64,000 nucleotides of DNA. Source: Albidovulum sediminicola (lineage in GTDB: Bacteria > Pseudomonadota > Alphaproteobacteria > Rhodobacterales > Rhodobacteraceae). Below the pieces are notes generated by a model, which did no database searches, had not been told where the DNA came from, and worked only from the letters and a program-made list of their open reading frames with translations. Of the stretch, positions 30,405 through 39,739 are shown one piece after another. Both the position numbers and the translations under genes were made by a program. The DNA lies in NCBI RefSeq assembly GCF_025751575.1, contig NZ_JAOWLA010000013.1:1-64000 (forward strand). The letters are read 5' to 3'. Numbering within the stretch: the first letter of the stretch is position 1; every line of letters starts with the position of its first letter.

Positions 30405-30479
30405 TGGAGCGGGCGATGAGATTCGAACTCACGACCCTAACCTTGGCAAGGTTATGCTCTACCCCTGAGCTACGCCCGC
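30405..30479 (-). tRNA. tRNA-Gly (GCC)
   Basis: A 75-nt gene with encoded CCA. Acceptor stem GCGGGCG/CGCCCGC, D-loop GTAGCTCAGGGGTAGAGC, anticodon GCC in CTTGCCAAG, T-arm GTGAGTTCGAATCTCAT. Identical over all 75 nt to the copy at 30591-30665. It has its own promoter at 30493-30521. No clear terminator was found downstream. Confidence 0.97.
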
Positions 30480-30590: not shown

Positions 30591-30665
30591 TGGAGCGGGC
30601 GATGAGATTCGAACTCACGACCCTAACCTTGGCAAGGTTATGCTCTACCCCTGAGCTACGCCCGC
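30591..30665 (-). tRNA. tRNA-Gly (GCC), second copy
   Basis: 75 nt, identical to 30405-30479, with anticodon GCC. The duplication extends 9 nt into the 5' flank (GTCACGGAG in both). Promoter at 30682-30708 and terminator at 30555-30584 show it is an independent unit. Confidence 0.97.
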
Positions 30666-38730: not shown

Positions 38731-38902
38731 GCGCGCCGCGCGACCGCGCCGCTTCTTCATTGCCGGAAATACCCCCGCCGGATGCCTGCTGAGCCCGCGC
38801 GCCTTGGCGCGGGCGAGGGGAATGGCTTGGCCCGCCTTGCGGGCCGCCGCCCAGATCCCTGTCGGATGACCCCGAAAACACGGGGGACCCATAAAAGCAA
38901 AA

Positions 38903-38932
38903 CGGCGGCCCCCGGGAGGATGGGAGCCGCCG
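38903..38932 (-). terminator. Degenerate eighth CcsR hairpin acting as terminator
   Basis: Stem CGGCGGC/GCCGCCG (38903-38909 and 38926-38932) whose loop has CCCATCCTCCC instead of CCTCCTCCC. On the minus strand it is followed by GTTTTGCTTTT. It therefore looks like the last unit of the array turned into a rho-independent terminator. Confidence 0.65.
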
Positions 38933-39271
38933 CCTTGTCGCGAACCCCAGGGAGGAGGAAGGGGTTCTCGCGTCTGGGTGAAGGTCCGGTGGCAGCTCCG
39001 GGAGGAGGAGGAGCTGCCACCGTCTTCACAGCGCCGCCCCAGGGAGGAGGAGGGGGCGGGCGCATCACCTTGGGCCCATGCGGCCCGAATTCGGTCCGGC
39101 TTTGCGCCGGGGGTGGAAGTCGCGGCGGTGGCAGGGAGGAGGACGCCACCGCCGCGCTTCTTGACGGAACCTCCAGGGAGGAGGACGGAGGTTCCGCGTG
39201 TCTTGCGGCGGCATCAGGGAGGAGGAAGATGCCGCCGCTGGTCTCCGGGCCTGGGAGGAGGAGTGGCCCGG
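38903..39271 (-). ncRNA. CcsR/'cuckoo'-type sRNA array, seven to eight hairpins
   Basis: On the minus strand, directly after the DUF1127 stop codon, eight hairpins follow each other: 39245-39271, 39205-39238, 39165-39196, 39121-39156, 39031-39063, 38987-39022, 38940-38971 and 38903-38932. Stems differ in sequence (7-13 bp, several perfect), but seven loops share CCTCCTCCC, complementary to Shine-Dalgarno sequences. In Rhodobacter sphaeroides four such RNAs (CcsR1-4) are processed from the transcript of a DUF1127 gene and act in stress responses. A 57-nt spacer (39064-39120) holds one stem-loop without the motif, perhaps a decayed unit. Copy number here is twice that of R. sphaeroides. Confidence 0.85.
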
Positions 39272-39279
39272 GGAGTTCC

Positions 39280-39495
39280 TTATTGGCCGTAGGCCGCCTC
39301 GGTCGCGATCGCGTTGATCGACGCGCGGCTGATCCCCAGGTCGTAAAGATCGCGATCGCTCAGCGCGTTCAGCTCCTTCACGGTCTGGCGATAGACCTTG
39401 TAGCGGCCACGGGCGTCCTGCAGATTGCGCAGGAATGCGCCGATGCGCTCCGCAAGGCCAAGGTCCGTTCCGCTGATCACCGATACGTTTGCCAT
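39280..39495 (-). CDS. DUF1127 small protein (CcaF1-like)
   Basis: 71 residues. The C-terminal part has the DUF1127 pattern: RYKVYRQTVKELNALSDRDLYDLGISRASI. In R. sphaeroides the 71-residue homologue heading the CcsR operon is an RNA-binding protein called CcaF1 that affects CcsR maturation. Here it ends 8 nt before the first hairpin, so protein and sRNAs share one transcript. RBS: GGTGACGAA region upstream, weak. Confidence 0.87.
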   Translation of the reverse strand: MANVSVISGTDLGLAERIGAFLRNLQDARGRYKVYRQTVKELNALSDRDLYDLGISRASINAIATEAAYGQ

Positions 39496-39739
39496 TTCGT
39501 CACCTATTCGTCTCTGTCGGCGCCGTCAGTAGCGCTGTTGGGGCTAACATGCGCCTCATGCTGCAGCTGCACAATACCGCTTCGGATCAATGCCGCCATG
39601 CAGCAAATGCATAACGTATTCTGACGTATTTTCGGGCGTTTGCCTTGACGCAGCGTCATTTTTTTCGGCGGCCGGACCGTTGGGCCTTGCTCTTGTCATG
39701 CGGGCGTCACAACTGTGTCGCCAAACGAAGGAGCCGAAG

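Follow-up and report, generated by a model that had tools for sequence, protein, structure and literature searches.

The window, which is the whole 64-kb stretch of DNA analysed here, contains a ccaF1-like gene (39280..39495, minus strand) that encodes a 71-aa DUF1127 protein. The match of this ORF (39495-39280) to PF06568 (E = 7.1e-11) confirms the DUF1127 gene that the initial annotation had placed ahead of a hairpin array. A match to the CcaF1 gene was found in 20 of the 22 genomes placed in the same genus, and the nearest named DUF1127 proteins are those of Defluviimonas sediminis FT324 (76%) and Defluviimonas sp. WL0002 (73%), which puts the window in that genus or close to it. The array follows on the minus strand: the first of eight hairpins begins 8 nt past the DUF1127 stop codon, and the last ends at 38898. 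When both strands of the window were scanned, GGGAGGAGG occurred seven times, with every copy within 38950-39261, against 1.05 copies expected by shuffling; a count of seven was reached in 0 of 100 shuffles.

The motif sits in the loop of all eight folded hairpins. Seven loops are exactly CCTCCTCCC, and the eighth, CATCCTCCC, differs by one base. Scan and folding together bear out in full the initial description of seven canonical hairpins and one terminator-like hairpin with a mutated loop and a T-rich tail. The whole 397-nt stretch folds with z = -11.9 relative to shuffles. Folded singly, hairpins 2-8 give z-scores from -2.7 to -6.5; hairpin 1 stands out least from its shuffles (z = -1.4, with 18 of 200 shuffles equally good). 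The contiguous stems of hairpins 1-8 are 7, 11, 12, 13, 7, 13, 7 and 16 bp long.

Folding and spacing suggest that the eight hairpins, all on the minus strand, form four pairs. The weak hairpin 1 (39245..39271, exact CCTCCTCCC loop) and the strong hairpin 2 (39205..39238) would make up pair 1, and hairpins 3 (39164..39197) and 4 (39121..39156), which have exact loops and nearly equal stems, would make up pair 2. Pair 3 would comprise the weak hairpin 5 (39034..39059, exact loop) and the strong hairpin 6 (38987..39022), which carries an outer GTGAAG/CTTCAC helix. The weak hairpin 7 (38942..38967, exact loop) and the terminator-like hairpin 8 (38937-38898, reaching 38891 with its T-rich tail; CATCCTCCC loop) would form pair 4.

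A covariance search supports the CcsR/cuckoo-type identity that had been proposed for the array. The Rfam model ar14 (RF02344) scores 69 bits at 39281-39162, over its gathering cut-off of 58.8 bits, and a second ar14 stretch at 38898-39028 scores 50.2 bits, under the cut-off. The locus also has the features of ccaF1-CcsR (CIN1), namely a small DUF1127 gene directly upstream on the array's strand and CCUCCUCCC loops on variable, covarying stems. At least one hairpin lies behind 77 of the 80 DUF1127 matches sampled in the family. Elsewhere in the window, two tRNA genes (30408-30479 and 30594-30665), whose starts lie 186 bp apart, have identical Rfam scores. A separate small RNA-like locus (L003 1440-1625; G000:C22 about 325045-325230) has loops CTCTCCC and CCTCCC and a terminator-like end, and it matches ar14 weakly, at 31.5 bits and so under the cut-off. 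It carries a TTGACATAGATCAA box, presumably of FNR type, and is possibly an oxygen-controlled anti-Shine-Dalgarno RNA.

The arrangement resembles known systems. As published, the CcsR1-4 locus of R. sphaeroides (RSs0680a-d, with ccaF1, RSP_6037) likewise has a 71-aa DUF1127 gene, followed by 3′ untranslated region RNAs with anti-Shine-Dalgarno loops and a terminator at the end. The window differs in that mature RNAs, RNase E cutting and stress induction are predictions there, and in its one changed loop of eight. The ar14 or cuckoo RNAs of Rfam RF02344 (NfeR1, SmelA075 and SmelA099) share with the window's array a row of adjoining hairpins whose loops are CCUCCUCCC and whose stems vary. The Sinorhizobium ar14 members, however, are described with two to four hairpins and NfeR1 with its own sigma-70 promoter, whereas the window has eight hairpins placed behind a DUF1127 gene.

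The loops and stems of these arrays behave differently across related loci. Hairpins were accepted when their stem had 5 or more contiguous pairs and their motif no more than one mismatch, and 646 of the 705 that passed have exact loops. In the 365 of these that combine an exact loop with the commonest register and sufficient flank, ten stem positions pair at 89.7%, compared with 55.5% when the 3′ arms were re-dealt (largest of 200: 57.2%) and 33-45% when the same set was slid; both the 89.7% and the 646 of 705 are partly built in, because the hairpin test demands motif and stem. In an unfiltered repeat, whose spans still came from arrays found with the hairpin filter, 681 exact motifs at one fixed register pair at 69.3%, compared with 51.8% re-dealt (largest of 200: 53.5%) and 41-53% slid. 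A loop-blind collection of 427 hairpins of at least 9 bp within the array spans contained 388 with the exact motif, 25 with one change, 5 with two and 9 others. As the loci are related, these are not independent events, and the shuffle controls overstate their independence. Even so, the stems plainly covary, and the loops are plainly not free to vary. The constant anti-Shine-Dalgarno loops with varying stems described in the initial annotation are upheld by the loop-blind collection, and the compensatory stem changes in relatives, whose absence it had named as refuting, are present in the unfiltered comparison.

The array had been called expanded, a claim that the counts in its family do not support. 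Counting in the family started from the DUF1127 gene, not from the array, and covered 80 loci, one per genus, outside the window's genus; these were the best 80 by E-value of the 306 genomes that matched at E <= 1e-6 (394 searched), so the sample leans to close relatives. One place per genome was taken, and second places in G381 and G013 were skipped. The number of hairpins in this sample has a median of 8, quartiles of 6 and 9 and a range of 0-17; eight is the commonest value (15 loci), with at least eight hairpins in 41 of the 80 loci and more than eight in 26. Under the same test the reversed sequence gave 567 units against 596 real ones, and the reverse complement gave 3; the reversed control is held uninformative, since reversing keeps C/T-rich motifs within one mismatch together with mirrored stems. 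In the window's own genus, 18 loci have 3-8 hairpins (median 7), and four of them, the window included, reach the top value of eight; this count left out L045 (contig end), L048 (short locus, other coordinates) and the weaker matches L054-L059. The notion of an expanded array was therefore rejected for the family, where eight is the median; within the genus the window ties for the top.

Larger and smaller arrays both occur. No hairpin was found at three of the 80 family loci, L118, L141 and L147, of which L141 has just 697 nt downstream; at least L118 looks like a paralogue, its genome carrying an array elsewhere. Three exact motifs in a row are present in 118 of the 394 family genomes. The locus L195 (650-1820) has 26 exact motifs in one array behind a DUF1127 gene, 18 units of which pass the hairpin test, 17 of them with the exact motif. 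Tandem Repeats Finder resolved most of this array into a 140-bp three-motif block (6.5 copies, 97% matches) and found an 89-bp two-motif block in 5.4 copies at L106; it reported no repeat in the window's array. These block repeats indicate that at least some arrays have grown as blocks were duplicated in tandem, and in those two arrays the duplication is recent and involves two- or three-motif blocks. Copy number spreads widely in the family, from none to 17 in the 80 loci and to 26 motifs in another genome.

The stem lengths within arrays alternate. In 79 arrays of at least five hairpins, odd and even stems differ by 3.39 bp on average, compared with 1.83 bp after shuffling (2.34 being the highest mean among 500 shuffles), and the autocorrelation is -0.54 at lag 1 and +0.32 at lag 2. 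Junctions from a weak hairpin to one at least 3 bp longer (246 of 610) have a median linker of 9 nt, and strong-to-weak junctions (201 of 610) have a median linker of 36 nt; these comparisons used 447 of the 610 junctions, the remainder differing by under 3 bp. Linkers of at least 28 nt come after even-numbered hairpins in 136 of 166 cases in the family and 16 of 22 in the genus. This alternation of stems, combined with short and long linkers, makes a weak-strong pair the most likely repeat. Pairing in the window is imperfect: the stem of hairpin 3 (12 bp) is nearly as long as that of hairpin 4 (13 bp), and only a short link follows hairpin 2.

In R. sphaeroides, the published description gives RSs0680a (CcsR1) two stem loops, each bearing an anti-Shine-Dalgarno motif (PMC3927594). 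The four that the initial annotation gave for R. sphaeroides are RNAs. The annotation had compared hairpins with RNAs, and eight hairpins would correspond to about four RNAs. Judged from the window's sequence and from the published description of the R. sphaeroides RNAs, not from that organism's sequence, the window most likely contains four two-hairpin RNAs, which is the published R. sphaeroides number. Contrary to the notion that the array is exceptional, its eight hairpins, which probably form four pairs, make it normal in size.

A motif-free spacer between hairpins 4 and 5 had been noted and was thought to be a decayed ninth unit. The spacer is real (39120-39060, 61 nt, minus strand) and holds two small hairpins (CCGGC/GCCGG and GGGCC/GGCCC). 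The spacer recurs with two similar small hairpins at the same place in L035, L036, L048, L051 and L053, where CCGGC/GCCGG is followed by GGGCC/GGCCC, or a near form, before an ATGCG/ATACG end; L037 has a longer, different spacer there. In other loci of the genus, linkers that follow an earlier hairpin carry a like stem in the form GGGCC/GGCCC or GGACC/GGTCC, the two differing by a double change that preserves pairing. Long linkers contain a perfect stem of at least 5 bp in 18 of 22 cases in the genus, compared with 4.8 in shuffles (largest 10), and in 89 of 166 cases in the family, compared with 29.5 (largest 48), although part of these stems fall in remains of missed hairpins. With a like spacer at the same place in close relatives, the decayed-unit reading was rejected in favour of a normal, conserved inter-pair linker.

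At the end of the arrays, a T-run follows 60 of 95 last hairpins (48 with the exact loop), compared with 23 of 610 others. The terminator hairpin has the exact CCTCCTCCC loop in the nearest relatives (L035, L036 and L037), which indicates that the terminator is itself a unit there and that the window's loop is the changed one. In some loci of the genus (e.g. L042 and L046) the terminator is a plain, motif-free hairpin. The terminator thus often doubles as an array unit.

How such a locus would work can be proposed from its relatives. The ccaF1-CcsR locus of R. sphaeroides is reported to be co-transcribed from an RpoHI/HII promoter and cut by RNase E, with CcaF1 helping (PMC10253847, PMC8625941, PMC7866481). 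The alpha-r14 anti-Shine-Dalgarno loops are likewise reported to silence ntrB and to act redundantly, and NfeR1 loop mutants to lose ntrB silencing (PMC10746234). At the DNA level, the window's hairpins lie in the would-be 3′ untranslated region of the DUF1127 gene and are spaced like four pairs. By analogy with R. sphaeroides and S. meliloti, one stress-induced transcript would span the DUF1127 gene and the array. RNase E, aided by the DUF1127 protein, may then cut this transcript into about four two-hairpin RNAs, whose CCUCCUCCC loops would block the translation of several mRNAs by pairing with their purine-rich ribosome-binding sites, the repeated loops presumably giving redundancy and dose. 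A target search by exact 9-nt complement was of little use: full complements just before an ATG number six in the genome, one being the array's own antisense, against one in the control, and few of them precede a plausible gene. As 9-nt complements are rare, targets would mostly pair over fewer bases.

Other functions for the hairpins are less probable than this antisense role. Many identical loops per locus, with up to 26 motifs in one genome, would suit a sponge that mainly titrates a protein or another RNA instead of repressing mRNAs; such a role is quite unlikely, because the loop is complementary to ribosome-binding sites and NfeR1 loop mutants are reported to lose ntrB silencing. Stable stems adjoin the coding gene and the last hairpin is often terminator-like (60 of 95), as they would if the hairpins served solely to stabilise or terminate the ccaF1 mRNA, the loops being passengers. 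A pure stem function would nevertheless predict the reverse of fixed loops on varying stems, and with the exact motif in 388 of the 427 loop-blind hairpins this explanation is very improbable. Open frames cross part of the region, and yet a proline/leucine-rich peptide encoded by the repeats is scarcely credible, given that the motif spacings of 36, 41, 42, 92, 42, 50 and 36 keep no single frame and that the stems covary. The locus is very probably a ccaF1-CcsR (cuckoo RNA, alpha-r14) operon in a Defluviimonas relative, of ordinary size and with the mechanism proposed above. This kind of bacterial stress-RNA locus, with hairpins behind the gene of a small RNA-binding protein, is already known, and the striking part is a conserved double box upstream of the gene.

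Motif searches place box I (TGCATTTGCTGCAT), which has the LTTR-type form TGCA-N6-GCAT, at 39598..39611 and box II (TGCAGCTGCAGCAT), 40 bp from box I, at 39558..39571, both on the minus strand. An alignment of 15 upstream regions from the genus shows a conserved block about 60-120 bp ahead of the start codon, which holds both boxes. A pair of TGCR-N6-GCAW boxes 36-44 bp apart occurs in 77 of 98 loci (17 of 18 in the genus and 60 of 80 in the family) and in 0 of 200 shuffles; the spacing is exactly 40 in 65 loci and 39 in 12. The 21 loci that lack the pair include all three hairpin-less loci. A single TGC[AG]-N6-GCAT box, either one, is present in 92 of the 98 loci (control: 1.76). In the 22 genus genomes, a slightly narrower tandem pattern gave 18 matches in 15 genomes, of which 14 lie at ccaF1, one lies in a like sequence at a contig edge and three lie elsewhere. 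Within the genus the double site is thus nearly confined to ccaF1-CcsR, and the window's genome has a single copy, at ccaF1-CcsR. Among the open-access titles and abstracts listed, none concerned the double box or family-wide counts of hairpin pairs, a weak result, as the main cuckoo RNA and CcaF1 papers lay outside the search.

A promoter-like element, TTGTG-N18-CATGTT, overlaps box II (39546..39574, minus strand) and is read against the RpoH-type promoter consensus. Patterns of the TTGTG...CATGTT type with spacers of 16-20 occur in 49 of the 98 loci, against a control mean of 0.2. By analogy with R. sphaeroides, an RpoH-type sigma factor would recognise this putative promoter. Additional DUF1127 genes were also observed. 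One in the window's genome (L181 987-1288; G000:C7 about 84286-84587) encodes a 62-aa protein, lacks anti-Shine-Dalgarno hairpins and carries the upstream element TGCAAATGCTGCATGGCAGCA; of the two boxes it has box I only. Second ccaF1-like genes in relatives (L054, L055 and L056) have one exact anti-Shine-Dalgarno hairpin each; in L054 and L055 this hairpin is preceded by a CCCTCCC-type loop and followed by a terminator-like hairpin, and both boxes are present upstream, 40 bp apart.

The form of the boxes points to a regulator. At the S. meliloti NfeR1 (alpha-r14) promoter, the LsrB site is TGCA-N6-GCAT, as established by EMSA and point mutants (PMC10746234). The LsrB-bound S. meliloti promoters (PnfeR1, and PabcR1 as cited in PMC10746234) thus have this sequence upstream of an anti-Shine-Dalgarno sRNA, as does the window; the window differs in having two such sites (T-N11-A) 40 bp apart and a regulator that is only putative. 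From this likeness in sequence, a LysR-type regulator of the LsrB kind would act on the double box.

Control by PhaR, the regulator linked to the PHB store, was weighed against an LsrB-like regulator. The published R. sphaeroides PhaR site is CTGCN3GCAG (PMC12542648), and a palindrome like this PhaR site CTGCNNNGCAG lies in the conserved upstream block in 58 of the 98 loci, compared with 0.87 in the control. Of the 22 genus genomes, 15 carry the 12-base form of this palindrome between phaC and phaP (17 sites, with phaR seen adjoining in 13 genomes), and seven have it at ccaF1. The TGCTGCNNNGCAGCA palindromes between phaC and phaP at L169 (1501-1543) and L156 (1501-1515) are probably PhaR sites. 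In the window, however, the palindrome is broken (CTGCATGGCGG), and across the 98 loci it is less well kept than TGC[AG]-N6-GCAT. Furthermore, none of 14 phaP palindromes (from 14 of the 15 palindrome genomes, L187 being left out) has a TGC[AG]-N6-GCAT box within 30 nt, and the palindrome is absent from the second copies L054 and L055, which retain the double box. On the broken palindrome, these second copies and the phaP palindromes that lack the other box, PhaR was ranked below an LsrB-like LTTR; with that box better kept, it was rejected as the main regulator, and upstream control by PhaR in place of such an LTTR is unlikely.

For an LsrB-like regulator, a broader proposal is tentative but a serious possibility: an LsrB-related LysR regulator may control cuckoo RNAs with anti-Shine-Dalgarno loops in Rhizobiales and Rhodobacteraceae alike, acting in Rhodobacteraceae through a dedicated double TGCR-N6-GCAW site with a fixed spacing of 39-40 bp. 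The analysis names a likely repeat unit for these arrays, a weak plus a strong hairpin, and the promoter element is sharp and testable and may explain how these RNAs switch on. If the proposal is true, the RNA family would have kept its regulator from one order to another, with wide drift in the number of two-hairpin modules.
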